NCBI RefSeq assembly: GCF_037038585.1
Contig: NC_092524.1
Location: forward strand, 71,510,552 to 71,574,551
DNA: 64,000 nt
Source: Patagioenas fasciata
Lineage: Eukaryota; Chordata; Aves; Columbiformes; Columbidae
Direction of reading: 5' to 3'
Position 1 is the stretch's first letter; every line of letters starts with the position of its first letter. Of the stretch, positions 25,456 to 61,032 are shown piece by piece. Made by a program: the position numbers and the translations under genes. Under the pieces are notes generated by a model. That model was not told where the DNA came from. It searched no databases and saw only the letters and a program-made list of their open reading frames with translations.

Positions 25456-25466
25456 CACCAGACTGA

Positions 25467-25721
25467 ATGGAGAAGCAAGTGGATGGGAAGTTCCTACGCC
25501 ACGACACAGACCACATTTATTACTCTCGCCCTCCGAGACCCGGAGAACCGAACCGTTCTCATCGTGCCTTGAAGCAACCTCTGCTCATGCGCTTCTCCCA
25601 GGGAGAAGGCAGAATGGGAGTGCCTCGCCACGTTAAACAACAGGGTGTACACTCCACAGCTTTCAAGCCCAGCTCTGCGTTAGCTCACCCCTGCAATTTT
25701 GCACCGCCCACGCAAATTTGA
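25467..25721 (+). CDS. Unrecognised 84-residue ORF, copy 2 (diverged)
   Basis: Same length, start and stop as the ORF at 2,093 but with about a dozen amino-acid changes, concentrated in the first 65 residues. By eye I count roughly 11 replacement and 5 silent changes against the 35,713 copy, close to a neutral ratio. The last ~20 codons are identical, suggesting a conversion boundary near 25,660. Function unknown. Confidence 0.3.
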   Translation: MEKQVDGKFLRHDTDHIYYSRPPRPGEPNRSHRALKQPLLMRFSQGEGRMGVPRHVKQQGVHSTAFKPSSALAHPCNFAPPTQI

Positions 25722-26485
25722 GTTGTCGCTGGTTGTTGCAGCGTTTGGCTTTGGTGAGGACAGCGTGTGTTTGTCAGCAGTTGGTGTAGGGTGGAATCTT
25801 GAGGAGAAAGTGATATTTCCGTGCCAGAACTGGTTGGTGTTTGCATGGTATTGTGGTAGTTGTTCCCACAGGTGATCAGTGCTGGAGTGTTATTGCAGGA
25901 TGAGGGGATTTTGAAGGCTTGTCTGTGAGATGCACTAGAGGCAGCAGTTGCAAACGAAAGGCTGAGGTGTGGAGAGTTTGTCGGTGGGTTTTGGACAGTT
26001 GTCAGTTGAAGAGTTGGTTGTTTGCAGGTGAGGTGTAGAGCAGAGGGTGAAGCTGACTTTGCCTGGGCGGCGCAACTGGATGGGTGTGCAGAGCTGAGGA
26101 GAGCGGGCTTCTGCGGGTGACCCTAAAGCTGGAGAACCAGCCAGCGGCAGCTCCAGACAGTCCCGCTGCCGAGCTTGGCCGTGTAGGGCCAGTGTCCTGG
26201 GGCACAGGGAGTGTGACCCTCCGCAAGCACCAAACAGCAGGTGAGGACTGTGGGGATTTGTACTGAGCTATGATATCTCTAAGGCATGTGCGAGGGGCCG
26301 GGGCCAAGGCAAGGTGGGCTCGTTGTGGGGTGTGGGGAGGTGTCAGCCCCCGGACTCAGCCCCTGTCTGATTGTAGTGCCCTTGGGCTGGTGTAGCTCAG
26401 TCCTCTGTGTGTTTCTCTTCAGGTGGAGCAGCGTGCAAAGGAAAAGCAAGGAAGGAGAGGAAGGTGGTGAACCTATGAGGAAGAG
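25722..26485 (+). other. Lys/Glu-rich module 1 of unit A1, split by an ERV
   Basis: Homologous to 2,348-3,170. Acceptor-like TTCTCTTCAG ends at 26,422. The open Lys/Glu-rich stretch is interrupted at 26,486 by a minus-strand ERV and resumes at 27,466 after the repeated GAAGAG. Confidence 0.5.
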
Positions 26486-26691
26486 TGTAGCGAATCTGGT
26501 GTGGACTCACGGTAAGGTGCCATGAGAGACATTTATTACAAACTCAGGTTTGCATTTATACTCGCTATGATGCTTGCTCAAGCATTTGCTCTTTAGCTAA
26601 GTTAGACATTACATGAGCGATGTAACTGCCATATACGCATTTTTTTCTATAGTAAGCTGTCCCTCTGTCCCTGATGTATCAGTCCTGTATC
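26486..26691 (-). repeat. Truncated 3' LTR of the minus-strand ERV, unit A1
   Basis: About 206 bp matching the 3' portion of the LTR and ending GCTACA. Its 5' part was lost in the deletion; the junction at 26,684-26,697 shows a tandem CCTGTAT. Confidence 0.75.
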
Positions 26692-26964
26692 CTGTATCTT
26701 AGTAGTCACAATTTTTCCCCAAGTAGATGAATATTTGCAAGCAGCTTTATCTCCAGTCGTTACCTGTTCATATAATTCTCATTCATCTTTGTGCCATGTC
26801 TCCAACTGAAATGTACCAGTTGTAGGAAAGTCTAGCACATGATTAGCAATCCATTCTAATAAACTCACCAATCAGACCCCTGATACATCCTGATTTTGCG
26901 TTTGTAGCGCATGTTGAAGGACATCCAGGGTTTGTCTTTGCTTAAGGGATAACTTCCCTCCCAT
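26692..26964 (-). pseudogene. gag: gag 5' remnant in the minus-strand ERV, unit A1
   Basis: An ATG at 26,962-26,964 (minus strand) opens a Gag-type N-terminus beginning MGGKLS, a myristoylation-type signal. The frame stops after about 20 codons and gag DNA continues only to about 26,692, where it joins the 3' LTR. Non-functional. Confidence 0.7.
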
Positions 26965-27086
26965 GGTTCCCAATCGCTCACCTTTCGTTGGTGGTGGGCG
27001 CGCACTGTCCTGGTTCCCGGTCCTGTTTCCTGGTTCGATTGGGCTTCGCTACCAGAGCGGCTACTGCCTTTATAGGCACGCTGAAA

Positions 27087-27106
27087 GTCCCTGTTCCAGG
27101 GCGCCA
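27087..27106 (-). promoter_or_regulatory. Primer-binding site, Lys-type with 2-bp insertion
   Basis: On the minus strand TGGCGCCCTGGAACAGGGAC equals the Lys3 site with an extra TG. It lies two bases after the LTR. Confidence 0.7.
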
Positions 27107-27108
27107 TT

Positions 27109-27465
27109 TGTAGCGAATGCGGTACGGACTCTCTTTTAAGGTGCAATGAGAGATGTTTATTACAAATTCAGGCTTGTGTTTATACTCGCTATGATACTTG
27201 CTCAAGCATTTGTTGATTAGCTAAGTTAGTCATTACATGAGTGATGTGTTTTGTGTTCCCACCAAAGTCACTGCCATAAACACCTTTTTTGTCTATCACA
27301 AGCTGTCCCTCTGTCCTTGATGCATCAATCCTGTATCAACTCCTCTGTCCTTGATGTATCACATAGCATACAGTCCTTTGTTCTTGTATTTTTCCACTAA
27401 TGCTTGTTCTCATGCTGTTGACTCTTGCAGTTTCTCATGTGCCCGGTCTTCCGTGTACTGACACA
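27109..27465 (-). repeat. 5' LTR of the minus-strand ERV, unit A1
   Basis: 357 bp, begins TGTGTCAGT and ends GCTACA on the minus strand. Homologous to the plus-strand LTR at 3,278-3,622 but diverged. A TATAAA-type box is present on the minus strand. Confidence 0.8.
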
Positions 27466-29216
27466 GAAGAGCGATCACGAAAGAGGATTGGAGCGCACCT
27501 GTGAGTCAAGCAGAGTCAAGAAAGAAGATGACAGTGGTGGACCTGTGAGTCAGGAGGGGACAAAAGAGGAGAAAGGTGATGGAGCTACGAGTCAAGAGTG
27601 AGGAGGAAGATGGGCAGCCTGAGCCAGCGAGAAGGAGAATGTATCCTTAAGCACAGGGAACGATCTGTGATTAGTGCGTCCCCCTCCCACCCCTAGAAAC
27701 TGTGCTCGGGGGTAAAGTGGTAAAATGGGAGCAGGGGCTGTTGGCTGTGTTTTGGGAGGTGGGGGTGGTGAGCAGGGGCTGGGCTCTTGGACTTGGGAGC
27801 AGTTAAGGGAGCAGGGTGGTCATCCCTTGGGAGGTGTCTGTCTGCCAGCAGGTAAAGGAGGGGGAAGAGGATCCTGCCGGGGTGAGGGCCTGGCCAGCTC
27901 TCCACTCCCAGGGCTCTTGATGCTGGTGTGGTGTGTTGCTGTAAGTGCCAGGGGTGACTGGCAAAGAAAGTCTTTGTGGGGTGCATGCTGGGAAACTGTG
28001 CTGCTACGGAGGGGCTGGGTTGGTGGGAAGGCCTGTGTGGGGGGCCGGGGCCAAGGCAAGGTGGCCTTGTGGTGGGGTGTGGGGATGCGTCAGCGACCGG
28101 ACTCGCCCCCTCGTGTGACTGTACGGGCCTGGGGTGGGTATATTTTTGTTTTCTGTGCATCTCTGTTCGGGTGGAGCAGCTCGCAAAGGTGAAAGCAAGA
28201 AAGAAGAGGAAGGTGGTGAACCTACGAGGAAGAGCGATCAAGAAAGAGGATTGGAGTGCATCTGCAAGTCAACAGGGATCAAGAAAGAAGATGACGGTGG
28301 TAGACCTGCGAGTCAGGAGGGATCAAGAAAGAAGAGGAGGAAGGTGATGGAGCTGTGAGTCAGGAGTGAGGAGGAAGAAAATGTCCCCCTTGGGACAGGG
28401 ACCTCCCTGTAATCAGGACTGCGCCCTCCCACCCCTGGAAACTGCTCAGGGGCTCAGACATCCATGGGAAGGTTGTGTCCGACAACACGAGCCAGATCTT
28501 CAGCACTGGCTGCTGTTCAGCTGGGACCAGGGGCTGCTGGTGGGGTTTTGGGAGGCGGGGTGGGTGAGTAGAGGCTGGGCTTTTGTACTCATGAGTGGTT
28601 GAGAGAGAGGGCTGGACACCTCTTGGGAGGTGTCTTGTCTGTCTGCCATCAGCTAAAGGAGGGGGAAGAGGATCCTGCTGGGGTGAGGGCCTGGCCAGCT
28701 CTCCACTCCCAGGGCTCTTGATGCTGATGTGGTGTGTTGCTGTAAGTGCCAGGGGTGACTGGCAAAGAAAGTCTTTGTGGGGTGCATGCTGGGAAACTGT
28801 GCTGCTACGGAGGGGCTGGGTTGGTGGGAAGGCCTGTGCGGGGGGCCGGGGCCAAGGCAAGGTGGGCTTGCTGTGGGATGTGGGGATGCGACAGCGACCG
28901 GACTCACCCCCTATGTGACTGTACGGGCTTGGGGTGGGTGTATTTCTGTCTTCAGGGCATTTCGGTTTGGGTGGAGCAGCTCACAAAGGCGAAAGCAAGA
29001 AAGGAAAGTAAGGTTGTGAACTTACGAGAAAGAGTGATCAAGAAAGAGGATTTGAGTTCATCCGGGAGTCGAGGGATCAAGAAAGAAGAGGAGGAAGGTG
29101 ATGGACGTGCACATTGAAAATGAGAGGGAAGATGGGCAACCTGAAGCATGGAGCAAGGGAATGTCTCCTAGAACAAAGGGACCTTTCTGTAATCAGAGAT
29201 CCCCCCTCCTACCCTA
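27466..29216 (+). repeat. Lys/Glu-rich modules 2-3 of unit A1 (tandem ~800-bp repeats)
   Basis: After the rest of module 1 (to about 27,620) come two ~800-bp tandem modules; for example a block at 27,976 recurs at 28,777. Each has a G-rich part then a Lys/Glu/Arg-rich open stretch with 42-45-bp GATCAAGAAAGA repeats. Module 3 has an acceptor-like TCTGTCTTCAG near 28,958; in module 2 the matching AG has become GG. Module 3 runs into the 55-bp array. Protein product, if any, unknown. Confidence 0.6.
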
Positions 29217-29712
29217 CAAACTGAACAAAGAGGACTGCGAGAGGGAGCGCTCTGACAGGACAAGAGGTATCAGTAAATCTGGCAAGAGGACAGTGGGGGA
29301 AGCGCTCTGGCGGATCAACAAGTCTCAATATATGTGGCAAGAGGATGATGGGGGAGAGTTCACCAGTGGTTCAAAAGTCACCCAGAAAAAGGGGAAGAGG
29401 ATGTCAAGGGGGGAGCGCTCTGGTCGATCACAAGACTCTCCTAAAAAACACAACAGGATGGTGGGGGGGGGGAATGTCCTATATGGGACAAGGGGTCCCG
29501 AGAAATCCAGCAAGAGGATGGTGGGGGGGAGCACTCCAGCAGACCAAGAATGTACTAAGGAAAGGCAAAAGGACGGCAGGAGGAGAGACCCAGTGGGTCA
29601 AGAGGTACCGAGAAATCCAGCAAGAGGACGACAGGGAGGAGCTCTTTAGCAGGCCAAAATCCCACTGAGGAAAGGCAAGAGGACAGCGGGGGAGAGCGCT
29701 CCAGTTCTTCAA

Positions 29713-31322
29713 GTGACTTCCCAGGCAGAAGGCAGGAGCATGGCGGGGCAGGACTGCGGCAGGTCAAGAATTCTCAGTCTGGCAATAGGATGGCGGGGAG
29801 GAGCGTTCCAGCGGGAGAAGAGCGCCCTGACTAGAGGCAAGACAAGGGTGAGGGAGAGCACTCGGACGTGTCAAGAAGACTCCCCCAAAAAGTGCAAGAG
29901 GAAGGCCGGTGGGGAGAGCAATCCAGCAGATCAGGAAGTCTCAATAAATGCGGTAAGAAGGTGGCAGGTGGGAGCTCCCCAGTGGTTCAAGAGGTCCCAA
30001 GATATCCAGCAAGAGAACTGTGAGGGGGAGCGCTCCAACAGGTCAAGCGGTGTCAAGAAATCCAGCAAGACAATGGTGGAAAACGCTCCGGTGAGTCACA
30101 AGATTCCCCCAAAAAAAGGCAAGAGAATGGTGCAGGGGAGCACTCTGGTGGATCAAGAAGCACCCAGGAAAAGGGGAAGAAGATGGTGGGGGGGAGCACT
30201 CTGGTTGGTCACAAGACTCCCCCAGAAAACACAAGAGGGTGGCAGGGGGAACGCCCTAATGGGTCAAGAGGACCCAAGAAATCCAGCAAGAGGACGGTGA
30301 GGGGGAGCGCTCCAGCAGATCAGGAAGTCTCGATAAATGCGGTAAGAGGATGGCGGGTGGGAGCCCCCCCAGTGGTCCAAGAGGTCCCAAGAAATCCAGC
30401 AAGAGGACGGCGAGGGGGAGCGCTCTGGCAGATCAGGACGTCTCAATAAATGCGGTAAAAGGATGGTGGGTGGGAGCCCCTCAGTGGTTCGCAAGGTTCC
30501 AGGAAATCCAGCAAGAGGACGGCGTGGGGGAGCGCTGTGGCAGATGAAGAACCCTCAGTACATCTGGCAAGAGGACGGTGAGGGGGTGCTCTGATGGGTC
30601 AAGGTTGCTCTGAAAAAAGCCCAAGAGGGTGGTAAGGAGAAGCTCACCGGTGATTCACGAATCACCCAGAAAAAAGGGAAGAGGACAGTGCGGGGGAGCT
30701 CTTCAGTTGTTGAAGAGAATCCCCAGAAAAAGGCAGGAGGATGATGAGGGGGAACACTCTGGCGGGTCAAGAAGTCTCGATAAGTCCGGCAAGAAGACGG
30801 TGGGGAGGAGAGCTCGTGTGGGTCAAGAGGTCCCAAGAAACCCAGCAAGAGGACAGCAGGGGCGAGCGCTCCGGCAGATCAGGAAATCTCGATAAATGCA
30901 GTTAGAGGATGGGTGTGAGCCCCTCAGTTGTTTAAGACGTCCCAAGAAATCCAGCAAGAGAACTGCGAGGGGGAGCGCTCCGGCAGGTCAAGCGATGTCA
31001 AGAAATCCAGCAAGACAATGGTGGAGAACTCTCCGGCGAGTCACAAGACTCTCCCAAAAAAGGCAAAAGAATGGTGCAGGGGAGCACTCTGGTGCATCAA
31101 GAAGCACCCAGGAAAAGGGGAAGAGGATGGTGGGGGGAAACGGCCTGGTTGGTCACAAGACTCCCCCAAAAACCACAAGAGGGTGGCAGGGGGAACGCCC
31201 TAATGGGTCAAGAAGTCCCAAGAAATCCAGCAAGAGGACGACAGGGAGGAGCTCTTTAGCAGGCCAAAATCCCACTGAGGAAAGGCAAGAGGACAGCGGG
31301 GGAGAGCGCTCCAGTTCTTCAA
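29713..31322 (+). repeat. ~1,612-bp higher-order unit 1 of A1
   Basis: 1,610 bp; start placed at the CAAGTGACTTCCCAGGCAG block for convenience. It recurs at 31,323. Confidence 0.85.
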
Positions 31323-32926
31323 GTGACTTCCCAGGCAGAAGGCAGGAGCATGGCGGGGCAGGACTGCGGCAGGTCAAGAATTCTCAGTCTGGCAATAGGA
31401 TGGCGGGGAGGAGCGTTCCAGCGGGAGAAGAGCGCCCTGACTAGAGGCAAGACAAGGGTGAGGGAGAGCACTCGGACGTGTCAAGAAGACTCCCCCAAAA
31501 AGTGCAAGAGGAAGGCCGGTGGGGAGAGCAATCCAGCAGATCAGGAAGTCTCAATAAATGCGGTAAGAAGGTGGCAGGTGGGAGCTCCCCAGTGGTTCAA
31601 GAGGTCCCAAGATATCCAGCAAGAGAACTGTGAGGGAGAGCGCTCCAACAGGTCAAGCGGTGTCAAGAAATCCAGCAAGACAATGGTGGAAAACGCTCCG
31701 GTGAGTCACAAGATTCCCCCAAAAAAAGGCAAGAGAATGGTGCAGGGGAGCACTCTGGTGGATCAAGAAGCACCCAGGAAAAGGGGAAGAAGATGGTGGG
31801 GGGGAGCACTCTGGTTGGTCACAAGACTCCCCCAGAAAACACAAGAGGGTGGCAGGGGGAACGCCCTAATGGGTCAAGAGGACCCAAGAAATCCAGCAAG
31901 AGGACAGCGAGGGGGAGCGCTCCAGCAGATCAGGAAGTCTCGATAAATGCGGTAAGAGCATGGTGGGTGGGAGGCCCCCAGTGGTTCAAGAGGTCCCAAG
32001 AAATCCAGCAAGAGGGCGGCGAGGGGGAGCGCTCTGGCAGATCAGGACGTCTCAATAAATGCGGTAAAAGGATGGTGGGTGGGAGCCCCTCAGTGGTTCG
32101 CAAGGTTCCAGGAAATCCAGCAAGAGGACGGCGTGGGGGAGCACTGTGGCAGATGAAGAACCCTCAGTACATCTGGCAAGAGGACGGTGAGGGGGTGCTC
32201 TGATGGGTCAAGGTTGCTCTGAAAAAAGCCCAAGAGGGTGGTAAGGAGAAGCTCACCGGTGATTCACGAATCACCCAGAAAAAAGGGAAGAGGACAGTGC
32301 GGGGGAGCTCTTCAGTTGTTGAAGAGAATCCCCAGAAAAAGGCAGGAGGATGATGAGGGGGAACACTCTGGCGGGTCAAGAAGTCTCAATAAGTCCGGCA
32401 AGAAGACGGTGGGGAGGAGAGCTCGTGTGGGTCAAGAGGTCCCAAGAAACCCAGCAAGAGGACAGCAGGGGCGAGCGCTCCGGCAGATCAGGAAATCTCG
32501 ATAAATGCAGTTAGAGGATGGTGGGTGTGAGCCCCTCAGTTGTTTAAGACGTCCCAAGAAATCCAGCAAGAGAACTGCGAGGGGGAGCGCTCCGGCAGGT
32601 CAAGCGATGTCAAGAAATCCAGCAAGACAATGGTGGAGAACTCTCCGGCGAGTCACAAGACTCTCCCAAAAAAGGCAAAAGAATGGTGCAGGGGAGCACT
32701 CTGGTGGATCAAGAAGCACCCAGGAAAAGGGGAAGAGGATGGTGGGGGGAAACGGCCTGGTTGGTCACAAGACTCCCCCAAAAACCACAAGAGGGGGAAC
32801 GCCCTAATGGGTCAAGAAGTCCCAAGAAATCCAGCAAGAGGACGACAGGGAGGAGCTCTTTAGCAGGCCAAAATCCCACTGAGGAAAGGCAAGAGGACAG
32901 CGGGGGAGAGCGCTCCAGTTCTTCAA
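31323..32926 (+). repeat. ~1,612-bp higher-order unit 2 of A1
   Basis: 1,604 bp; a short deletion near 32,790 (in the GGGTGGCAGGGGG stretch) and a 3-bp addition near 32,520 distinguish it from unit 1. The same deletion marks the last full unit of A2. Confidence 0.85.
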
Positions 32927-33590
32927 GTGACTTCCCAGGCAGAAGGCAGGAGCATGGTGGGGCAGGACTGTGGCAGGTCAAGAATTCTCAGTCTGGCAAT
33001 AGGATGGCGGGGAGGAGTGTTCCAGCGGGAGAAGAGCGCCCTGACTAGAGGCAAGACAAGGGTGAGGGAGAGCGCTCGGATGTGTGAAGAAGACTCCCCC
33101 AAAAAAGTGCAAGAGGAAGGCCAGGGGGAGAGCAATCCAGCAGATCAGGAAGTCTCAATAAATGCGGTAAGAGGATGGCGGGTGGGAGCCCCCCAGTGGT
33201 CCAAGAGATCCCAAGAAATCCAGCAAGAGGACGGCAAGGGGGAGCGCTCCAGCAGATCAGGAAATCTCGATAAATGCGGTTAGAGGATGGTGGGTGGGAG
33301 CCCCACAGTTGTTTAAGGCATCCCAAGAAATCCAGCAAAAGGACGGCGAGGGGGAGCGCTCTGGCAGATCAGGACGTCTCAATAAATGCGGTAAGAGGAT
33401 GGCGGGTGGGAGCCCCCCAGTGGTTCAAAATGTCCCAAGATATCCAGGAAGAGAACTGTGAGGGGGACCGCTCTGGCAGGACAAGCGATGTCAACAAATC
33501 CAGCAAGACAATGGTGGAGAACGCTCCGGTGAGTCACAAGACTCCACCAAAAAAGGCAAGAGAATGGTTAGAGGATGGTAACAGGCAGCT
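32927..33590 (+). repeat. Partial higher-order unit, A1
   Basis: Truncated third unit that passes into the array tail. Matches 46,397-47,060 in A2. Confidence 0.75.
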
Positions 33591-34841
33591 TTGAGAGCAC
33601 TCTGGTGGATCAAGAAGCACCCAGGAAAAGGGGAAGAGGATGGTGGGGGGAAACGGCCTGGTTGATCACAAGACTCCCCCAAAAACCACAAGAGGGTGGC
33701 AGGGGGAATGCCCTAAGGGGTCAAGAGGTTCCAAGAAATCCAGCAGGAGGACGGCGAGGGGGAGCGCTCCAGCAGGCTGAGATTGTACTAAAGAAAGGCA
33801 AAAGGACAGCAGGAGGAGAGACCCAGTGGGTCAAGAGGTCCCAAGAAATCCAGTAAGAGGACAACAGGGAGCAGTGCTCTGGCAGGCCAAAATCTCAGTG
33901 AAGAAAGGCAAGAGGACAGCAGGGGGGAGTGCTCCAGTTCTTCAAGTGACTTCCCAGGTAGAAGGCAGAAGGACGGTGGGGTAGCGCTGGGACAGGTCAA
34001 GAATTCTCAATCTGGCAATAGGACAGCAGGGAGGAGCATCCAGCGGGACAGGAGCGCCCTGAAAATAGGCAAGACAAGGGTGAGTGAGAGCACTCCGAGA
34101 TGTCAAGAAGTGTCAAAAAATCTGGTAAAGGATGGCAGGGGGGAGTGCTGTGGATATTCAAGAGACTCCCCAGTAAAAGGCAAGAGGACGGCGCGGGGAA
34201 GTGCTCCAGCACGTCAAGATCGCACTGAAGAAAGGCAAGGTCACAGTGGGGGGGAGCATTCCCGTTGTTCCAATGGTTCAAAAGGTCCCAAGAAATCCAA
34301 CAAGAGAACTGCGAGGGGGAGCGCTCTGGCAAGTCAAGCGGTGTCAATAACCCCAGCAAGGCAACGGCAGAGAGCGCTCTGGTGAGTCACGAGACTCCCC
34401 TACAAAGGACGAGAGGATGGTGGAGGGGAGCCCACCAGTGGTTCAAGCAGCACCCAGGAAAAGGGGAGGAGGCTGACGAGGGGCAGGCCTCTGGCGGGCC
34501 AAGATCGCTGAGGGAAGGTGCGGGGGAGCTTGCTGGTGGCTCAAGAGACCTCTAGAAAAAGGTAAGAGGGCGGCGGGGGGTGGGAGGGCGCCTCAGCTGG
34601 TGAAGAGGAACCCCGAAAACAAGGCAAGAGAATGTTGGTGGGGGGAGCGCTCTGGCGGTTCCAGAGGCTCCCCGAGATCCGCTCAGACGGCAGCGGGTAA
34701 CGCGGCAGCTCAGCGTCAATCAAAGAAGAACAGGAAGGCGGTTGACCTGCAATTCCAGAGCGAGGAGGAAGACTGGCAACCCGAACGAGGAGCAGCAGAA
34801 CTTGGCATGGCCTCTGAAATCCTCCTTTAATCTGGGCTCAG

Positions 34842-35699
34842 GTAAGCTGGAAGCAGGGGACATAGGCTGGGGTTTGGGAGGTGGGCAGGTGAGAAATGAT
34901 CCGCATTTTTGATCTCCTGAGTGACTGAAGCGCCTGGGAGTTCATTTGGAGTCGTTGCCTTACTTGATTTTACACTGACTTTTGCATTATATTTTAATGA
35001 CGTAGAATTTTCCGTTTTGACATCGAAACCTAAACTTCTTTGGAAATTCATCCTCTGTCCCTTCAGTCTCAGCTCGTGGCACTTCCACTGTCTCGTGGCC
35101 CGCGTTTCAATGTACATTAGATCGCTTCCTGGGCCTTGGATTTTAAGTAATGGTCCGTCACAAGTTTGTTTTTCTTGTCCTTAACGGGCAGCTTTGAGAG
35201 CTCTCTAAGGAAAAGTGATATCTTTTTACCTTGTTACTGCTCTTTCCATGTTACGAGCAGCCACCCTCTTTATGATCAGTCTCATGCTTTTCTTCCTTTC
35301 TTGCCCAGGTTCAGAAGACCGGGAATTCCAAGCTTCAAGTTTCCTGTGGAACATTGCGGGAGACCTTGATAACGTGGCAATGAGGGAGGTGATGAAGAGG
35401 AACAATACCTGTTCCTTTCCCATTTCAAGACGTTATTTTTTACCTTCCTGGTAGCTGTGAGATGATTTGCAATCTTGCGCTAGCATCTGCCTGAAAGAGA
35501 ACACGGACCCTTTGGGTGCCTCCTCAAGAAATACTTGCTCTATGGTTCTGGCGATGTCCAGGCTTCAAGGGTGGGGCATAGGGGAGTGTAAATCTTAGGG
35601 GGCCTCCCGGGATGTCTGCAGGTTTGGGTGACCCGTGGCTGGGACGGGGACGCCGAGGTTGTCAATCTTGCCCTGAATCTCTCGCTCCCTCTCTTGCAG
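34842..35699 (+). other. Inter-array spacer, end of A1
   Basis: Copy of 1,222-2,079 with the same donor- and acceptor-like sites. No gene recognised. Confidence 0.55.
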
Positions 35700-35712
35700 C
35701 ACCCGAGACCGA

Positions 35713-35967
35713 ATGGAGGAGCAAGTGTACGGGAAGTTCCTGCGCCACGACACAGATCACATTTATCGCTCTCGCCCTGAGAGACCCGGAGAACCAAACC
35801 GTTCCCATCGTGCCTTGAAGCAGCCTCTGCTCACACGCTTCTCCCAGGGAGAAGGCAGAACGGCAGTAGCTCGCCACGTTATACCACAGGGTGCACACTC
35901 CGCAGCTTTCAAGCCCAGCTCTGCGTTAGCTCACCCCTGCAATTTTGCACCGCCCACGCAAATTTGA
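35713..35967 (+). CDS. Unrecognised 84-residue ORF, copy 3
   Basis: Almost identical to the ORFs at 2,093 and 49,184. Preceded by the acceptor-like TTGCAG ending at 35,699. No domain recognised; translation unproven. Confidence 0.3.
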   Translation: MEEQVYGKFLRHDTDHIYRSRPERPGEPNRSHRALKQPLLTRFSQGEGRTAVARHVIPQGAHSAAFKPSSALAHPCNFAPPTQI

Positions 35968-36731
35968 GTTGTCGCTGGTTGTTGCAGCGTTTGGCTTTGG
36001 TGAGGACAGCGTGTGTTTGTCAGCAGTTGGTGTAGGGTGGAATCTTGAGGAGAAAGTGATATTTCCGTGCCAGAACTGGTTGGTGTTTGCATGGTATTGT
36101 GGTAGTTGTTCCCACAGGTGATCAGTGCTGGAGTGTTATTGCAGGATGAGGGGATTTTGAAGGCTTGTCTGTGAGATGCACTAGAGGCAGCAGTTGCAAA
36201 CGAAAGGCTGAGGTGTGGAGAGTTTGTCAGTGGGTTTTGGACAGTTGTCAGTTGAAGAGTTGGTTGTTTGCAGGTGAGGTGTAGAGCAGAGGGTGAAGCT
36301 GACTTTGCCTGGGCGGCGCAACTGGATGGGTGTGCAGAGCTGAGGAGAGCGGGCTTCTGCGGGTGACCCTAAAGCTGGAGAACCAGCCAGCGGCAGCTCC
36401 AGACAGTCCCGCTGCCGAGCTTGGCCGTGTAGGGCCAGTGCCCTGGGGCACAGGGAGTGTGACCCTCCGCAAGCACCAAACAGCAGGTGAGGACTGTGGG
36501 GATTTGTACTGAGCTATGATATCTCTAAGGCATGTGCGAGGGGCCGGGGCCAAGGCAAGGTGGGCTCGTTGTGGGGTGTGGGGAGGTGTCAGCCCCCGGA
36601 CTCAGCCCCTGTCTGATTGTAGTGCCCTTGGGCTGGTGTAGCTCAGTCCTCTGTGTGTTTCTCTTCAGGTGGAGCAGCGTGCAAAGGAAAAGCAAGGAAG
36701 GAGAGGAAGGTGGTGAACCTATGAGGAAGAG
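35968..36731 (+). other. Lys/Glu-rich module 1 of unit A2
   Basis: Copy of 25,722-26,485, with the acceptor-like site ending at 36,668. Split by the ERV at 36,732. Confidence 0.5.
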
Positions 36732-39462: not shown

Positions 39463-39958
39463 CAAACTGAACAAAGAGGACTGCGAGAGGGAGCGCTCTG
39501 ACAGGACAAGAGGTATCAGTAAATCTGGCAAGAGGACAGTGGGGGAAGCGCTCTGGCGGATCAACAAGTCTCAATATATGTGGCAAGAGGATGATGGGGG
39601 AGAGTTCACCAGTGGTTCAAAAGTCACCCAGAAAAAGGGGAAGAGGATGTCAAGGGGGGAGCGCTCTGGTCGATCACAAGACTCTCCTGAAAAACACAAC
39701 AGGATGGTGGTGGGGGGGAATGTCCTATATGGGACAAGGGGTCCCGAGAAATCCAGCAAGAGGATGGTGGGGGGGAGCACTCCAGCAGACCAAGAATGTA
39801 CTAAGGAAAGGCAAAAGGACGGCAGGAGGAGAGACCCAGTGGGTCAAGAGGTACCGAGAAATCCAGCAAGAGGACGACAGGGAGGAGCTCTTTAGCAGGC
39901 CAAAATCCCACTGAGGAAAGGCAAGAGGACAGCGGGGGAGAGCGCTCCAGTTCTTCAA

Positions 39959-41568
39959 GTGACTTCCCAGGCAGAAGGCAGGAGCATGGCGGGGCAGGAC
40001 TGCGGCAGGTCAAGAATTCTCAGTCTGGCAATAGGATGGCGGGGAGGAGCGTTCCAGCGGGAGAAGAGCGCCCTGACTAGAGGCAAGACAAGGGTGAGGG
40101 AGAGCACTCGGACGTGTCAAGAAGACTCCCCCAAAAAGTGCAAGAGGAAGGCCGGTGGGGAGAGCAATCCAGCAGATCAGGAAGTCTCAATAAATGCGGT
40201 AAGAAGGTGGCAGGTGGGAGCTCCCCAGTGGTTCAAGAGGTCCCAAGATATCCAGCAAGAGAACTGTGAGGGGGAGCGCTCCAACAGGTCAAGCGGTGTC
40301 AAGAAATCCAGCAAGACAATGGTGGAAAACGCTCCGGTGAGTCACAAGATTCCCCCAAAAAAAGGCAAGAGAATGGTGCAGGGGAGCACTCTGGTGGATC
40401 AAGAAGCACCCAGGAAAAGGGGAAGAAGATGGTGGGGGGGAGCACTCTGGTTGGTCACAAGACTCCCCCAGAAAACACAAGAGGGTGGCAGGGGGAACGC
40501 CCTAATGGGTCAAGAGGACCCAAGAAATCCAGCAAGAGGACGGTGAGGGGGAGCGCTCCAGCAGATCAGGAAGTCTCGATAAATGCGGTAAGAGGATGGC
40601 GGGTGGGAGCCCCCCCAGTGGTCCAAGAGGTCCCAAGAAATCCAGCAAGAGGACGGCGAGGGGGAGCGCTCTGGCAGATCAGGACGTCTCAATAAATGCG
40701 GTAAAAGGATGGTGGGTGGGAGCCCCTCAGTGGTTCGCAAGGTTCCAGGAAATCCAGCAAGAGGACGGCGTGGGGGAGCGCTGTGGCAGATGAAGAACCC
40801 TCAGTACATCTGGCAAGAGGACGGTGAGGGGGTGCTCTGATGGGTCAAGGTTGCTCTGAAAAAAGCCCAAGAGGGTGGTAAGGAGAAGCTCACCGGTGAT
40901 TCACGAATCACCCAGAAAAAAGGGAAGAGGACAGTGCGGGGGAGCTCTTCAGTTGTTGAAGAGAATCCCCAGAAAAAGGCAGGAGGATGATGAGGGGGAA
41001 CACTCTGGCGGGTCAAGAAGTCTCGATAAGTCCGGCAAGAAGACGGTGGGGAGGAGAGCTCGTGTGGGTCAAGAGGTCCCAAGAAACCCAGCAAGAGGAC
41101 AGCAGGGGCGAGCGCTCCGGCAGATCAGGAAATCTCGATAAATGCAGTTAGAGGATGGGTGTGAGCCCCTCAGTTGTTTAAGACGTCCCAAGAAATTCAG
41201 CAAGAGAACTGCGAGGGGGAGCGCTCCGGCAGGTCAAGCGATGTCAAGAAATCCAGCAAGACAATGGTGGAGAACTCTCCGGCGAGTCACAAGACTCTCC
41301 CAAAAAAGGCAAAAGAATGGTGCAGGGGAGCACTCTGGTGGATCAAGAAGCACCCAGGAAAAGGGGAAGAGGATGGTGGGGGGAAACGGCCTGGTTGGTC
41401 ACAAGACTCCCCCAAAAACCACAAGAGGGTGGCAGGGGGAACGCCCTAATGGGTCAAGAAGTCCCAAGAAATCCAGCAAGAGGACGACAGGGAGGAGCTC
41501 TTTAGCAGGCCAAAATCCCACTGAGGAAAGGCAAGAGGACAGCGGGGGAGAGCGCTCCAGTTCTTCAA
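39959..41568 (+). repeat. ~1,612-bp higher-order unit 1 of A2
   Basis: Equivalent of 29,713-31,322. Confidence 0.85.
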
Positions 41569-43180
41569 GTGACTTCCCAGGCAGAAGGCAGGAGCATGGC
41601 GGGGCAGGACTGCGGCAGGTCAAGAATTCTCAGTCTGGCAATAGGATGGCGGGGAGGAGCGTTCCAGCGGGAGAAGAGCGCCCTGACTAGAGGCAAGACA
41701 AGGGTGAGGGAGAGCACTCGGACGTGTCAAGAAGACTCCCCCAAAAAGTGCAAGAGGAAGGCCGGTGGGGAGAGCAATCCAGCAGATCAGGAAGTCTCAA
41801 TAAATGCGGTAAGAAGGTGGCAGGTGGGAGCTCCCCAGTGGTTCAAGAGGTCCCAAGATATCCAGCAAGAGAACTGTGAGGGAGAGCGCTCCAACAGGTC
41901 AAGCGGTGTCAAGAAATCCAGCAAGACAATGGTGGAAAACGCTCCGGTGAGTCACAAGATTCCCCCAAAAAAAGGCAAGAGAATGGTGCAGGGGAGCACT
42001 CTGGTGGATCAAGAAGCACCCAGGAAAAGGGGAAGAAGATGGTGGGGGGGAGCACTCTGGTTGGTCACAAGACTCCCCCAGAAAACACAAGAGGGTGGCA
42101 GGGGGAACGCCCTAATGGGTCAAGAGGACCCAAGAAATCCAGCAAGAGGACAGCGAGGGGGAGCGCTCCAGCAGGTCAGGAAGTCTCGATAAATGCGGTA
42201 AGAGCATGGTGGGTGGGAGGCCCCCAGTGGTTCAAGAGGTCCCAAGAAATCCAGCAAGAGGGCGGCGAGGGGGAGCGCTCTGGCAGATCAGGACGTCTCA
42301 ATAAATGCGGTAAAAGGATGGTGGGTGGGAGCCCCCCAGTGGTTCACAAGGTTCCAGGAAATCCAGCAAGAGGACGGCGTGGGGGAGCGCTGTGGCAGAT
42401 GAAGAACCCTCGGTACATCTGGCAAGAGGACGGTGAGGGGGTGCTCTGATGGGTCAAGGTTGCTCTGAAAAAAGCCCAAGAGGGTGGTAAGGAGAAGCTC
42501 ACCGGTGATTCACGAATCACCCAGAAAAAAGGGAAGAGGACAGTGCGGGGGAGCTCTTCAGTTGTTGAAGAGAATCCCCAGAAAAAGGCAGGAGGATGAT
42601 GAGGGGGAACACTCTGGCGGGTCAAGAAGTCTCGATAAGTCCGGCAAGAAGACAGTGGGGAGGAGAGCTCGTGTGGGTCAAGAGGTCCCAAGAAACCCAG
42701 CAAGAGGACAGCAGGGGCGAGCGCTCCGGCAGATCAGGAAATCTCGATAAATGCAGTTAGAGGATGGTGGGTGTGAGCCCCTCAGTTGTTTAAGACGTCC
42801 CAAGAAATCCAGCAAGAGAACTGCGAGGGGGAGCGCTCCGGCAGGTCAAGCGATGTCAAGAAATCCAGCAAGACAATGGTGGAGAACTCTCCGGCGAGTC
42901 ACAAGACTCTCCCAAAAAAGGCAAAAGAATGGTGCAGGGGAGCACTCTGGTGGATCAAGAAGCACCCAGGAAAAGGGGAAGAGGATGGTGGGGGGAAACG
43001 GCCTGGTTGGTCACAAGACTCCCCCAAAAACCACAAGAGGGTGGCAGGGGGAACGCCCTAATGGGTCAAGAAGTCCCAAGAAATCCAGCAAGAGGACGAC
43101 AGGGAGGAGCTCTTTAGCAGGCCAAAATCCCACTGAGGAAAGGCAAGAGGACAGCGGGGGAGAGCGCTCCAGTTCTTCAA
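41569..43180 (+). repeat. ~1,612-bp higher-order unit 2 of A2
   Basis: 1,612 bp; lacks the A-for-C variant (GGCAAGAAAAGG) that marks the next two units. Confidence 0.85.
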
Positions 43181-44792
43181 GTGACTTCCCAGGCAGAAGG
43201 CAGGAGCATGGCGGGGCAGGACTGCGGCAGGTCAAGAATTCTCAGTCTGGCAATAGGATGGCGGGGAGGAGCGTTCCAGCGGGAGAAGAGCGCCCTGACT
43301 AGAGGCAAGAAAAGGGTGAGGGAGAGCACTCGGACGTGTCAAGAAGACTCCCCCAAAAAGTGCAAGAGGAAGGCCGGTGGGGAGAGCAATCCAGCAGATC
43401 AGGAAGTCTCAATAAATGCGGTAAGAAGGTGGCAGGTGGGAGCTCCCCAGTGGTTCAAGAGGTCCCAAGATATCCAGCAAGAGAACTGTGAGGGAGAGCG
43501 CTCCAACAGGTCAAGCGGTGTCAAGAAATCCAGCAAGACAATGGTGGAAAACGCTCCGGTGAGTCACAAGATTCCCCCAAAAAAAGGCAAGAGAATGGTG
43601 CAGGGGAGCACTCTGGTGGATCAAGAAGCACCCAGGAAAAGGGGAAGAAGATGGTGGGGGGGAGCACTCTGGTTGGTCACAAGACTCCCCCAGAAAACAC
43701 AAGAGGGTGGCAGGGGGAACGCCCTAATGGGTCAAGAGGACCCAAGAAATCCAGCAAGAGGACAGCGAGGGGGAGCGCTCCAGCAGGTCAGGAAGTCTCG
43801 ATAAATGCGGTAAGAGCATGGTGGGTGGGAGGCCCCCAGTGGTTCAAGAGGTCCCAAGAAATCCAGCAAGAGGGCGGCGAGGGGGAGCGCTCTGGCAGAT
43901 CAGGACGTCTCAATAAATGCGGTAAAAGGATGGTGGGTGGGAGCCCCCCAGTGGTTCACAAGGTTCCAGGAAATCCAGCAAGAGGACGGCGTGGGGGAGC
44001 GCTGTGGCAGATGAAGAACCCTCGGTACATCTGGCAAGAGGACGGTGAGGGGGTGCTCTGATGGGTCAAGGTTGCTCTGAAAAAAGCCCAAGAGGGTGGT
44101 AAGGAGAAGCTCACCGGTGATTCACGAATCACCCAGAAAAAAGGGAAGAGGACAGTGCGGGGGAGCTCTTCAGTTGTTGAAGAGAATCCCCAGAAAAAGG
44201 CAGGAGGATGATGAGGGGGAACACTCTGGCGGGTCAAGAAGTCTCGATAAGTCCGGCAAGAAGACAGTGGGGAGGAGAGCTCGTGTGGGTCAAGAGGTCC
44301 CAAGAAACCCAGCAAGAGGACAGCAGGGGCGAGCGCTCCGGCAGATCAGGAAATCTCGATAAATGCAGTTAGAGGATGGTGGGTGTGAGCCCCTCAGTTG
44401 TTTAAGACGTCCCAAGAAATCCAGCAAGAGAACTGCGAGGGGGAGCGCTCCGGCAGGTCAAGCGATGTCAAGAAATCCAGCAAGACAATGGTGGAGAACT
44501 CTCCGGCGAGTCACAAGACTCTCCCAAAAAAGGCAAAAGAATGGTGCAGGGGAGCACTCTGGTGGATCAAGAAGCACCCAGGAAAAGGGGAAGAGGATGG
44601 TGGGGGGAAACGGCCTGGTTGGTCACAAGACTCCCCCAAAAACCACAAGAGGGTGGCAGGGGGAACGCCCTAATGGGTCAAGAAGTCCCAAGAAATCCAG
44701 CAAGAGGACGACAGGGAGGAGCTCTTTAGCAGGCCAAAATCCCACTGAGGAAAGGCAAGAGGACAGCGGGGGAGAGCGCTCCAGTTCTTCAA
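43181..44792 (+). repeat. ~1,612-bp higher-order unit 3 of A2
   Basis: 1,612 bp; carries GGCAAGAAAAGGGTGAGG at about 43,305 in place of the usual GGCAAGACAAGGGTGAGG. Confidence 0.85.
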
Positions 44793-46396
44793 GTGACTTC
44801 CCAGGCAGAAGGCAGGAGCATGGCGGGGCAGGACTGCGGCAGGTCAAGAATTCTCAGTCTGGCAATAGGATGGCGGGGAGGAGCGTTCCAGCGGGAGAAG
44901 AGCGCCCTGACTAGAGGCAAGAAAAGGGTGAGGGAGAGCACTCGGACGTGTCAAGAAGACTCCCCCAAAAAGTGCAAGAGGAAGGCCGGTGGGGAGAGCA
45001 ATCCAGCAGATCAGGAAGTCTCAATAAATGCGGTAAGAAGGTGGCAGGTGGGAGCTCCCCAGTGGTTCAAGAGGTCCCAAGATATCCAGCAAGAGAACTG
45101 TGAGGGAGAGCGCTCCAACAGGTCAAGCGGTGTCAAGAAATCCAGCAAGACAATGGTGGAAAACGCTCCGGTGAGTCACAAGATTCCCCCAAAAAAAGGC
45201 AAGAGAATGGTGCAGGGGAGCACTCTGGTGGATCAAGAAGCACCCAGGAAAAGGGGAAGAAGATGGTGGGGGGGAGCACTCTGGTTGGTCACAAGACTCC
45301 CCCAGAAAACACAAGAGGGTGGCAGGGGGAACGCCCTAATGGGTCAAGAGGACCCAAGAAATCCAGCAAGAGGACAGCGAGGGGGAGCGCTCCAGCAGGT
45401 CAGGAAGTCTCGATAAATGCGGTAAGAGCATGGTGGGTGGGAGGCCCCCAGTGGTTCAAGAGGTCCCAAGAAATCCAGCAAGAGGGCGGCGAGGGGGAGC
45501 GCTCTGGCAGATCAGGACGTCTCAATAAATGCGGTAAAAGGATGGTGGGTGGGAACCCCCCAGTGGTTCACAAGGTTCCAGGAAATCCAGCAAGAGGACG
45601 GCGTGGGGGAGCGCTGTGGCAGATGAAGAACCCTCAGTACATCTGGCAAGAGGACGGTGAGGGGGTGCTCTGATGGGTCAAGGTTGCTCTGAAAAAAGCC
45701 CAAGAGGGTGGTAAGGAGAAGCTCACCGGTGATTCACGAATCACCCAGAAAAAAGGGAAGAGGACAGTGCGGGGGAGCTCTTCAGTTGTTGAAGAGAATC
45801 CCCAGAAAAAGGCAGGAGGATGATGAGGGGGAACACTCTGGCGGGTCAAGAAGTCTCAATAAGTCCGGCAAGAAGACGGTGGGGAGGAGAGCTCGTGTGG
45901 GTCAAGAGGTCCCAAGAAACCCAGCAAGAGGACAGCAGGGGCGAGCGCTCCGGCAGATCAGGAAATCTCGATAAATGCAGTTAGAGGATGGTGGGTGTGA
46001 GCCCCTCAGTTGTTTAAGACGTCCCAAGAAATCCAGCAAGAGAACTGCGAGGGGGAGCGCTCCGGCAGGTCAAGCGATGTCAAGAAATCCAGCAAGACAA
46101 TGGTGGAGAACTCTCCGGCGAGTCACAAGACTCTCCCAAAAAAGGCAAAAGAATGGTGCAGGGGAGCACTCTGGTGGATCAAGAAGCACCCAGGAAAAGG
46201 GGAAGAGGATGGTGGGGGGAAACGGCCTGGTTGGTCACAAGACTCCCCCAAAAACCACAAGAGGGGGAACGCCCTAATGGGTCAAGAAGTCCCAAGAAAT
46301 CCAGCAAGAGGACGACAGGGAGGAGCTCTTTAGCAGGCCAAAATCCCACTGAGGAAAGGCAAGAGGACAGCGGGGGAGAGCGCTCCAGTTCTTCAA
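44793..46396 (+). repeat. ~1,612-bp higher-order unit 4 of A2
   Basis: Shares the GGCAAGAAAAGG variant with unit 3 in its first part, and the deletion near 46,265 with A1 unit 2 in its last part. It therefore looks like a recombinant of a duplicated unit and the ancestral last unit. Confidence 0.8.
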
Positions 46397-47060
46397 GTGA
46401 CTTCCCAGGCAGAAGGCAGGAGCATGGTGGGGCAGGACTGTGGCAGGTCAAGAATTCTCAGTCTGGCAATAGGATGGCGGGGAGGAGCGTTCCAGCGGGA
46501 GAAGAGCGCCCTGACTAGAGGCAAGACAAGGGTGAGGGAGAGCGCTCGGATGTGTGAAGAAGACTCCCCCAAAAAAGTGCAAGAGGAAGGCCAGGGGGAG
46601 AGCAATCCAGCAGATCAGGAAGTCTCAATAAATGCGGTAAGAGGATGGCGGGTGGGAGCCCCCCCAGTGGTCCAAGAGATCCCAAGAAATCCAGCAAGAG
46701 GACGGCAAGGGGGAGCGCTCCAGCAGATCAGGAAATCTCGATAAATGCGGTTAGAGGATGGTGGGTGGGAGCCCCACAGTTGTTTAAGGCATCCCAAGAA
46801 ATCCAGCAAAAGGACGGCGAGGGGGAACGCTCTGGCAGATCAGGACGTCTCAATAAATGCGGTAAGAGGATGGCGGGTGGGAGCCCCCCAGTGGTTCAAA
46901 ATGTCCCAAGATATCCAGGAAGAGAACTGTGAGGGGGAGCGCTCCGGCAGGTCAAGCGATGTCAACAAATCCAGCAAGACAATGGTGGAGAACGCTCCGG
47001 TGAGTCACAAGACTCCACCAAAAAAGGCAAGAGAATGGTTAGAGGATGGTAACAGGCAGC
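46397..47060 (+). repeat. Partial higher-order unit, A2
   Basis: Matches 32,927-33,590 with few differences. Confidence 0.75.
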
Positions 47061-48312
47061 TTTGAGAGCACTCTGGTGGATCAAGAAGCACCCAGGAAAA
47101 GGGGAAGAGGATGGTGGGGGGAAACGGCCTGGTTGATCACAAGACTCCCCCAAAAACCACAAGAGGGTGGCAGGGGGAACGCCCTAAGGGGTCAAGAGGT
47201 TCCAAGAAATCCAGCAGCAGGACGGCGAGGGGGAGCGCTCCAGCAGGCTGAGATTGTACTAAAGAAAGGCAAAAGGACAGCAGGAGGAGAAACCCAGTGG
47301 GTCAAGAGGTCCCAAGAAATCCAGTAAGAGGACAACAGGGAGCAGTGCTCTGGCAGGCCAAAATCTCAGTGAAGAAAGGCAAGAGGACAGCAGGGGGGAG
47401 CGCTCCAGTTCTTCAAGTGACTTCCCAGGTAGAAGGCAGAAGGACGGTGGGGTAGCGCTGGGACAGGTCGAGAATTCTCAATCTGGCAATAGGACAGCAG
47501 GGAGGAGCATCCAGCGGGACAGGAGCGCCCTGAAAATAGGCAAGACAAGGGTGAGTGAGAGCACTCCGAGATGTCAAGAAGTGTCAAAAAATCTGGTAAA
47601 GGATGGCAGGGGGGAGTGCTGTGGATATTCAAGAGACTCCCCAGTAAAAGGCAAGAGGACGGCGCGGGGAAGTGCTCCAGCACGTCAAGATCGCACTGAA
47701 GAAAGGCAAGGTCACAGTGGGGGGGAGCATTCCCGTTGTTCCAATGGTTCAAAAGGTCCCAAGAAATCCAACAAGAGAACTGCGAGGGGGAGCGCTCTGG
47801 CAAGTCAAGCGGTGTCAATAACCCCAGCAAGGCAACGGCGGAGAGCGCTCTGGTGAGTCACGAGACTCCCCTACAAAGGACGAGAGGATGGTGGAGGGGA
47901 GCCCACCGGTGGTTCAGGCAGCACCAAGGAAAAGGGGAGGAGGCTGGCGAGGGGTAGGCCTCTGGCGGGCCAAGATCGCTGAGGGAAGGTGCGGGGGAGC
48001 TTGCTGGTGGCTCAAGAGACCTCTAGAAAAAGGTAAGAGGGCGGCGGGGGGTGGGAGGGCGCCTCAGCTGGTGAAGAGGAACCCCGAAAACAAGGCAAGA
48101 GAATGTTGGTGGGGGGAGCGCTCTGGCGGTTCCAGAGGCTCCCCGAGATCCGCTCAGACGGCAGCGGGTAACGCGGCAGCTCAGCGTCAATCAAAGAAGA
48201 ACAGGAAGGCGGTTGACCTGCAATTCCAGAGCGAGGAGGAAGACTGGCAACCCGAACGAGGAGCAGCAGAACTTGGCATGGCCTCTGAAATCCTCCTTTA
48301 ATCTGGGCTCAG

Positions 48313-49170
48313 GTAAGCTGGAAGCAGGGGACATAGGCTGGGGTTTGGGAGGTGGGCAGGTGAGAAATGATCCGCATTTTTGATCTCCTGAGTGACTGAA
48401 GCGCCTGGGAGTTCATTTGGAGTCGTTGCCTTACTTGATTTTACACTGACTTTTGCATTATATTTTAATGACGTAGAATTTTCCGTTTTGACATCGAAAC
48501 CTAAACTTCTTTGGAAATTCATCCTCTGTCCCTTCAGTCTCAGCTCGTGGCACTTCCACTGTCTCGTGGCCCGCGTTTCAATGTACATTAGATCGCTTCC
48601 TGGGCCTTGGATTTTAAGTAATGGTCCGTCACAAGTTTGTTTTTCTTGTCCTTAACGGGCAGCTTTGAGAGCTCTCTAAGGAAAAGTGATATCTTTTTAC
48701 CTTGTTACTGCTCTTTCCATGTTACGAGCAGCCACCCTCTTTATGATCAGTCTCATGCTTTTCTTCCTTTCTTGCCCAGGTTCAGAATACCGGGAATTCC
48801 AAGCTTCAAGTTTCCTGTGGAACATTGCGGGAGACCTTGATAACGTGGCAATGAGGGAGGTGATGAAGAGGAACAATACCTGTTCCTTTCCCATTTCAAG
48901 ACGTTATTTTTTACCTTCCTGGTAGCTGTGAGATGATTTGCAATCTTGCGCTAGCACCTGCCTGAAAGAGAACACGGACCCTTTGGGTGCCTCCTCAAGA
49001 AATACTTGCTCTATGGTTCTGGCGATGTCCAGGCTTCAAGGGTGGGGCATAGGGGAGTGTAAATCTTAGGGGGCCTCCCGGGATGTCTGCAGGTTTGGGT
49101 GACCCGTGTCTGGGACGGGGACGCCGAGGTTGTCAATCTTGTCCTGAATCTCTCGCTCCCTCTCTTGCAG
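48313..49170 (+). other. Inter-array spacer, end of A2
   Basis: Copy of 1,222-2,079. No gene recognised. Confidence 0.55.
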
Positions 49171-49183
49171 CACCCGAGACCGA

Positions 49184-52452: not shown

Positions 52453-52556
52453 ATTCAAGTCTAAACTCATGACCCGAGATCTCTTCCCTGGAACAGCTGG
52501 AAGTGCAGGGCTGGACTTGGCTGCCAGCCCGTCAGTGATGATAATTAATTACTGCT

Positions 52557-52796: not shown

Positions 52797-52830
52797 AGAG
52801 ATAGCATTGGGTGGTATCACCACAAGGGAT

Positions 52831-60967: not shown

Positions 60968-61032
60968 GTGAGTCCCTGGCCCTCGGGGCCTCGTCCCCGG
61001 CTTGTGTGTCCTGGTGCCTCCCTGCCCCTCCG

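Follow-up and report, generated by a model that had tools for sequence, protein, structure and literature searches.

The window analysed here, a 64,000-nucleotide stretch of a Patagioenas fasciata assembly (C5:71510552-71574551 of 71,669,782), stops 95 kb short of its contig end and is built of tandem repeats set one inside another (Table 1). The smallest element is a monomer spaced in the arrays at a mode of 56 and a mean of 55.6 bp, close to the degenerate 55-bp repeat of a preliminary description of this DNA; autocorrelation at 56 reaches 0.456 in the array of block A and 0.471 in that of block B, whereas one copy of the B array with its bases shuffled does not exceed 0.296, and both arrays have a purine fraction of 0.657 on the + strand. 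Twenty-nine monomers make up a unit of 1,612 bp, which bears out the middle level proposed at about that length, and complete units number two in block A and four in block B. By self-BLAST the blocks start at 25434 and 35678, with a further copy from 49147, so that they measure 10,244 and 13,469 bp; the first length is as originally given, the second replaces a figure of 13,471 bp, and their difference, put at 3,224 bp or exactly two units, comes to 3,225 bp (2 x 1,612 + 1). The two blocks are 99.22% identical in their 5' part and 99.34% in their 3' part. The nesting itself stands, with a level more than the three first counted: self-BLAST reveals a fourth, in which positions 1-13949 match 47091-61031 at 97.8% identity over 14,010 aligned columns, and a third copy at this level (gamma) begins near 63444 and continues downstream past the window.

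Table 1. Repeats, units, CpG islands and marker in the window
Feature	Position	Strand	Remarks
Fourth-level copy alpha	1..13949	+	56-bp array end, block start, ERV-bearing part, CpG islands
Fourth-level copy beta	47091..61031	+	97.8% to alpha
Large block A	25434..35677	+	10,244 bp; self-BLAST offset 10,244; 2 complete units
Large block B	35678..49146	+	13,469 bp; 4 complete units
56-bp monomer array, block A	29224..34495	+	98 monomers counted, 29228 to 34653
56-bp monomer array, block B	39470..47965	+	156 monomers counted, 39474 to 48124
Unit A1	29405..31015	+	first ~209 bp unlike A2 and B2-B4
Unit A2	31016..32627	+	99.5% to B2; 8 differing sites between A2 and B2
Unit B1	39651..41261	+	3 differences from A1
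Unit B2	41262..42873	+	
Unit B3	42874..44485	+	1 difference from B2
Unit B4	44486..46097	+	5 differences from B2
Direct repeat R (~400 bp) in A1	29605..30005, ends approximate	+	identity profiles, BLAST
Direct repeat R2 (~850 bp, block start), alpha copy	2058..2903	+	
R2 at start of block A	25434..26288	+	
R2 at start of block B	35678..36534	+	
R2 at start of next copy	49147..49994	+	
Block-start marker, 34 bases	35785..35818	+	4 places in window
CpG island 1, alpha	9900..12150	+	o/e 0.89 and 1.05 in 1-kb bins 10 and 11
CpG island 1, beta copy	~56960-59230		
CpG island 2, alpha	12900..13949	+	CpG o/e, few CpG transitions
CpG island 2, beta copy	~59981-61031		

At the middle level each unit contains one copy of a direct repeat, R, and a further copy follows the last unit, which makes three in block A and five in block B. 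The stretches from 32628 and from 46098 onwards were considered as a diverged third unit of block A and fifth unit of block B and rejected: each shares about 600 bp with the unit, and beyond that length the identity profile of 32628-34218 shows similarity at background level only. R stands at the beginning and end of every unit string that was read (16 of 16: three on C5, 12 on contig C6, one on the presumed W chromosome). Ten of these strings hold one R-R interval, four hold two and two hold four; three intervals measure 1,499-1,500 bp and one 1,224, all the others 1,602-1,613. At the left end of contig C3, exact marker matches form strings of 5 and 11 in steps of 1,613 or 1,500 bp. The assembly thus holds what defines a macrosatellite, a tandem unit of at least 1 kb whose copy number varies between loci. 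R for the middle units and R2 for the large ones are likely the substrates of exchange, and the proposal of nested tandem repeats with a copy number that varies at the middle level gains support, with the likely points of exchange now tied to specific direct repeats.

The recognizable ERV gene pieces, at 51803-54596, do not fall in the 10- to 13-kb blocks to which the preliminary description had assigned an ERV; the one element noted inside the blocks, at about 26486-27444, matches 3298-4037 in inverted orientation and may be LTR-like. When 40 ORFs were compared with Pfam, three pieces exceeded the curated cut-off, all of them retroviral. The array ORFs 41506-42189 and 39302-39892 matched no Pfam family, and a protein search with the 228-aa array ORF returned 227 candidates, none at E <= 0.001, from a database possibly poor in animal proteins. 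An Rfam search gave no match at gathering scores, a tRNA search found none, and a 23-base array word occurred at no place in viral and prokaryote contigs. ORFs had been noted within the large units; long frames do exist on the + strand and, together with the rarity of a frame as long as the longest in base shuffles (one of 500), would suit a gene in which a coding exon is repeated and still under selection. Shuffling the order of the monomers, however, equals or exceeds that frame in 187 of 500 trials, so that monomer composition accounts for the array frames; the spacings moreover keep no reading frame (mode 56, with 55, 54, 57, 58 and 53 also common), 1,612 is not divisible by three, and the array ORFs match no family. 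Pfam, the protein search and the shuffles gave no coding evidence for the repeat family, and a selected coding exon is extremely unlikely.

The alpha and beta copies each carry two CpG islands, and CpG o/e is high in both. Comparison of alpha with beta shows CpG transitions at 12 of 646 sites in the islands. The ERV part has more, 17 of 313 (p = 0.004), and so do the compared non-island parts as a whole, with 34 of 733 (p = 0.004); non-CpG divergence is equal inside and outside the islands (1.14% and 1.11%). Such scarcity of CpG transitions is what germline-unmethylated DNA predicts, and to judge from sequence the islands would seem to escape methylation in the germline; they could plausibly be transcribed. 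They might accordingly be promoters of a selected gene or lncRNA amplicon whose copy number would be kept for expression, a reading modelled on the multicopy genes of chicken pericentromeric heterochromatin that are expressed in testis. The high o/e in both copies and the depletion of transitions would fit such an amplicon, as would acceptor-like sites that recur at the block start. Some of these sites are nevertheless missing between paralogous sub-copies, only retroviral ORF pieces passed the Pfam cut-off, the 228-aa ORF found no match and the array frames follow from composition; a selected amplicon is thus possible, if rather unlikely. Most of the family's DNA is probably without selected function.

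Marker words searched across the 1.45-Gb genome (reversed controls, 0) place the family well beyond this locus. The block-start marker occurs at 633 places with up to three mismatches (reversed control, 0), the middle-unit marker at 541 and the CpG-island module marker at 134, with positions and orientations covering 100 places for each. Among the matches listed, most copies lie in the first 7.5 Mb of C6; for the CpG module, C6 accounts for 65 of the 100 listed places, and the remaining 35 are spread over 14 other ends. Outside C6, 14 chromosome ends, those of the presumed Z and W included, have listed copies at distances of 39-454 kb, and all 35 listed CpG-module places among these copies are on the - strand near a left end or on the + strand near a right end (p = 1.2e-4 if the 14 ends are taken as independent). 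The same polarity holds in listed non-C6 places for the block-start marker (14/14) and in further marker listings (12/12 and 28/28). The rule fails within C6, where copies face both ways and the strand changes several times over the first 7.5 Mb. TTAGGG-type telomere sequence is found in the genome, and neither the window nor the nine flanking or W loci checked showed a (TTAGGG)2 tract (TTAGGGTTAGGG or its complement).

These positions bear on a second proposal for the islands, by which they would be promoters of telomere-directed non-coding RNA, like human TERRA promoters. In the listed non-C6 copies the islands do lie at chromosome ends and keep one polarity, the + strand is G-rich (GC skew +0.164 over the window, up to +0.31 inside an island), and at the right end of C5 this strand heads for the contig end. 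Yet the listed non-C6 islands stand 39-437 kb from contig ends, far from terminal repeats, and skew is the sole pointer to promoter direction, which leaves TERRA-like promoters very unlikely.

Copies on different chromosomes are closely alike. Sequence identity was taken from C5, C6 and W, the other ends being known by markers: the copies read on these three are 98 to 99.9% identical over 2-kb segments, with pairs differing at no more than 43 of 2,101 and 21 of 2,005 columns. Over some 2,001 columns, the W copy differs at 10 sites from block B on C5 and at 9 from the 7.47-Mb copy on C6. The surroundings of SPIN1 on the presumed W and Z, by contrast, align at only 67-84%. Two contigs bear SPIN1-family exons, and one of the two also has a DM-domain cluster; from the gene placements expected on Z and W, we take C48 to be Z and C47 to be W. 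These genes, a CR1-like ORF and the TTAGGG-type telomere sequence all point to a bird genome. Sex linkage of the family was considered and rejected, because the presumed Z and W ends carry copies alongside autosome ends, a warning that a W copy of a repeat is no proof of sex linkage.

Taken together, copies near many ends, fixed polarity and nested variable units make it highly probable that the window is part of a bird subtelomeric duplicon family with an exchange-driven internal macrosatellite. The term "satellite", used at first, suits the tandem part and is too narrow for the whole, a subtelomeric segmental-duplication family containing a macrosatellite. Misassembly could be blamed for the copy numbers and the nesting, given that contigs stop inside repeats (at the C5 end and the C6 start) and that C6 switches strand several times; the nesting recurs, however, at many ends, in copies that differ in unit number and carry SNVs of their own, and an artefact is therefore very improbable.

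For the duplicon family, two processes would account for what is observed. Chromosome ends may swap tips or copy one another ectopically, which would keep copies the same way round relative to the telomere and hold those on C5, C6 and W at their high identity. Within each copy, misaligned chromatids would gain or lose whole units at direct repeats, pairing at R on both ends of each 1,612-bp unit for the middle level and at R2 at the starts of successive blocks for the large units, with 1 to 11 middle units per string as the outcome. It is enticing to speculate further, as an unlikely elaboration, that the family is an end-homogenizing module whose germline-unmethylated islands would fire telomere-ward at many ends, on autosomes, Z and W alike. 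In such a module, transcription and a G-rich strand would promote recombination between ends and so refresh, by exchange with autosomes, the tip of a W that is old and degenerate elsewhere. Few descriptions exist of the repeats at the ends of bird chromosomes, which are difficult to assemble. With its hundreds of copies, its four repeat levels, direct repeats marking where exchange is likely and a polarity that is fixed at 14 ends, the present family could allow rates of unequal exchange and of end exchange, W versus autosomes included, to be measured from assemblies plus reads.

The kind of object is already known from subtelomeric duplicons and D4Z4-like macrosatellites; a literature search, with Repbase, Dfam and most subscription papers outside its scope, found no description of the present family. 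The crow repeat crowSat1 reportedly has a 1.2-kb subunit inside its large tandem unit, and so resembles the pigeon family as a bird repeat in which a large tandem unit holds a smaller one. Its unit is given as 14 kb (PMC6115840), and in this comparison by description the lengths differ. PO41 of chicken and quail is likewise an avian subtelomeric tandem repeat; its monomer is 41 bp as opposed to a mode of 56 here, and its abstract mentions no kilobase-scale nesting (PMC4301066). The testis-expressed amplicons of chicken similarly form multicopy arrays on several chromosomes and, according to the sections consulted, lie in pericentromeric heterochromatin and hold duplicated genes or lncRNAs (PMC9974502), whereas the present arrays are subtelomeric with fixed polarity. 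A survey of birds reports subtelomeric segmental duplications with interchromosomal bias, a general trend, with no account of this family in the accessible part of the source (PMC13431229). Like D4Z4 of human 4q/10q (PMC2323237; see also PMC3018141), the family has a kilobase-scale tandem unit within a subtelomeric duplicon; unlike D4Z4, its 1,612-bp unit sits in blocks of about 8.6-13.5 kb, and the two array ORFs compared carry neither a homeobox nor another Pfam domain where D4Z4 has a double homeobox. Internal telomere-like tracts lie mostly at the boundaries of human duplicons, where they are usual and not required, and were absent from the loci checked here. The human duplicons also differ in that nested tandem repeats lie inside the present ones and that most listed copies occupy the first 7.5 Mb of C6. 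Human subtelomeric duplicons are, in the available part of their description, segments no shorter than 1 kb and no less than 90% identical, common to ends within the distal 500 kb, with an orientation relative to the telomere that is maintained and tied to translocation of chromosome tips (PMC2323237); the pigeon copies read on C5, C6 and W exceed both the length and the identity limit, those on C5 and W lie within 500 kb of an end, and outside C6, though not within it, orientation is kept at all 35 listed CpG-module places.

Self-comparison of the window bears out the nested repeat structure put forward in the preliminary description and refines its dimensions. The degenerate monomer, given there as 55 bp, has a modal spacing of 56 and a mean of 55.6 bp (Tandem Repeats Finder, autocorrelation and a monomer model), and the proposed unit of ~1,612 bp is confirmed as one of 29 monomers. 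Under the monomer model, mean similarity among the monomers of one 1,612-bp unit is 62%, and the lag means (0.56–0.68) reveal no clear phase inside the unit. The larger units form two tandem blocks, A and B; the length first reported for block A is correct, but that of block B is two bases below the earlier figure of 13,471 bp, and the difference in length between the blocks, though two units as claimed, is 3,225 bp (two units plus one base) rather than 3,224. A fourth repeat level had been missed: two copies, alpha and beta, share 97.8% identity by self-comparison, and a third, gamma, runs on downstream of the window.

Coordinates of the repeat features in the window
Feature	Position	Length	Content
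Block A	25434–35677	10,244 bp	2 complete 1,612-bp units
Block B	35678–49146	13,469 bp	4 complete 1,612-bp units
R2, direct repeat at block starts	2058, 25434, 35678, 49147	~850 bp	
Fourth-level copy alpha	1–13949		
Fourth-level copy beta	47091–61031		
Fourth-level copy gamma	from near 63444		

The + strand of the arrays is purine-rich (fraction 0.657). A short way upstream of block A is a purine-rich (0.695) 52-bp minisatellite (window 23718–25152; 27.6 copies, 95% matches by Tandem Repeats Finder), and related sequence occurs beside the copy of the family on the putative W chromosome (L043). Broken ERV pieces lie on the + strand inside the fourth-level repeat (window 51803–54596), with gag p24 C-terminal, dUTPase and integrase zinc-binding pieces above the Pfam cut-off and gag zinc-finger and integrase core pieces below it. 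On the - strand, a 251-aa open frame at 18519–19271, without a Pfam match, resembles a CR1 reverse transcriptase fragment.

The boundaries of the units point to where their number may change. In identity profiles of both blocks and the W copy, each unit contains a direct repeat of ~400 bp (R), and one extra R follows the last unit; past this R, unit similarity drops to background. The first ~209 bp of the initial units, A1 and B1, are distinct, and A2, B2–B4 and the sequence that follows the final unit have another, common start. By BLAST of one R across the stretches analysed, this repeat flanks 16 of 16 unit strings at both ends (three on the window's contig C5, 12 on contig C6 and one on the W), and a one-unit string is therefore R-body-R. 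The strings hold one interval in 10 cases, two in four and four in two; 22 of the 26 R-to-R intervals measure 1,602–1,613 bp, three 1,499–1,500 bp and one 1,224 bp. The most diverged R is the last of each string (94.7–97.0% versus 98.2–100% for other R copies by BLAST). A single site in ~1,612 separates B2 from B3; the count is 5 between B4 and B2, 8 between A2 and B2 and 3 between A1 and B1, and the sequences flanking the arrays of blocks A and B diverge by 0.7–0.8%. Misaligned R copies could allow gain or loss of one 1,612-bp unit.

The window lies at C5:71510552–71574551, close to the right end of a 71,669,782-bp contig, and a first DNA search returned at least 58 matches on C5, C6 and C47, a lower bound from the 14 of 557 candidates that were scored. 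Genome-wide, word markers found 633 places for the block start and 134 for the CpG-island module (both ≤3 mismatches), 541 for the middle unit (≤1 mismatch) and 23 for a subfamily (0 mismatches), with 0 in every reversed control. Matches are listed in contig order, 100 each of the block-start, unit and CpG-module places, all without mismatch, and those of the first two reach only into C6.

Of the 100 CpG-module places listed, C6 accounts for 65, and the remaining 35 are spread over 14 chromosome ends elsewhere (left C1, C2, C3, C4, C5, C10, C13 and C47; right C2, C3, C5, C11, C12 and C48). The module is in - orientation at left ends and + at right ends in all 35 places outside C6, and the same polarity holds there for 14/14 block-start and 28/28 unit-marker places among the matches listed and for 12/12 subfamily-marker places; under random orientation per end, the chance of 14 ends agreeing is 1.2e-4. 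C6 is the exception, with copies over 0–7.5 Mb and several strand switches among the matches listed. This terminal multi-megabase region is rich in the repeat family, and the contig start falls inside the repeat.

Exact unit markers per string, among the matches listed outside C6, number 1 on C1, 1 and 1 on C4, 5 and 11 at the left and 1 and 1 at the right of C3, and 1 at the left and 2 and 4 at the right of C5, with none on C2; the marker misses some units, as in the block directly upstream of the window, which has a 1,499-bp R interval and no listed unit marker. Steps at C3 left are 1,613 or 1,500 bp, and the shorter class, which strings on C5 and C6 also contain, falls short of a full unit by about two monomers; the lowest level therefore seems to change in number as well. 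Along C6 the listed unit markers show spacings of 8,646 bp and a super-period of 34,416 bp. At C3 left the CpG module follows a separate tandem period of 10,170 bp (four steps of the same size, C3:39485–80200), and the matching window places, 53434 and 63589, are 10,155 bp apart. Window 60613–63445 recurs in L023, a stretch where contig C5 terminates in a repeat with an 8,573-bp step (99.6% over 1,429 bases).

Copies on different chromosomes are closely similar. The 2-kb 5' segment shows 1–21 pairwise differences among 14 copies (C5, C6 and W), and the 2.1-kb 3' segment 3–43 among 15; within C6, copies in inverted orientation at 6.27 and 6.81 Mb are each 1 site per unit from those at 4.37 Mb. 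DMRT1 is expected on Z, and SPIN1 on both Z and W. C48 (85.9 Mb) has SPIN1-family exons and three DM-domain hits clustered in ~102 kb, and C47 (70.5 Mb) carries SPIN1-family exons whose surrounding DNA aligns with C48 at 67–84%; on this gene content, C48 can be read as Z and C47 as W. Judging from the DNA around SPIN1, W seems to be old, and C47 seems large given such strong divergence from Z. In the 5' segment the W copy differs from the others at only 9–18 sites, which argues that it is recent or has been kept similar. Z also has the family at one end, so W could have received it by a pseudoautosomal route.

Between alpha and beta, the CpG islands show transitions at 12 of 646 CpG positions, fewer than the ERV part (17/313; p = 0.004) or all three parts compared outside the islands (34/733; p = 0.004), at equal non-CpG divergence (islands 1.14%, ERV part 1.11%); island 1 of the third copy has 7/436. 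Small as these counts are, they suggest that the islands are probably unmethylated in the germline. The + strand of the window is G-rich (GC skew +0.164); directly after CpG island 2, at ~14000–14500, it is C-rich (-0.44 and -0.52 in two 250-bp bins). Transcription from the islands toward the telomere is a reasonable hypothesis, for which human TERRA promoters (PMC12242772) would offer an analogue. No coding evidence for the repeat family was found by Pfam, protein search or array-frame shuffles.

The family is thus a real four-level nested subtelomeric duplicon with an internal macrosatellite; it has no demonstrated function, and is well suited to measuring exchange at chromosome ends. It adds a new case to an established class. 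Subtelomeric duplications in birds are biased to interchromosomal ones (PMC13431229). Human subtelomeric duplicons maintain their orientation, which PMC2323237 ties to translocation of chromosome tips; the present family resembles them in its maintained orientation at the 14 listed ends, whereas its C6 copies depart from it.
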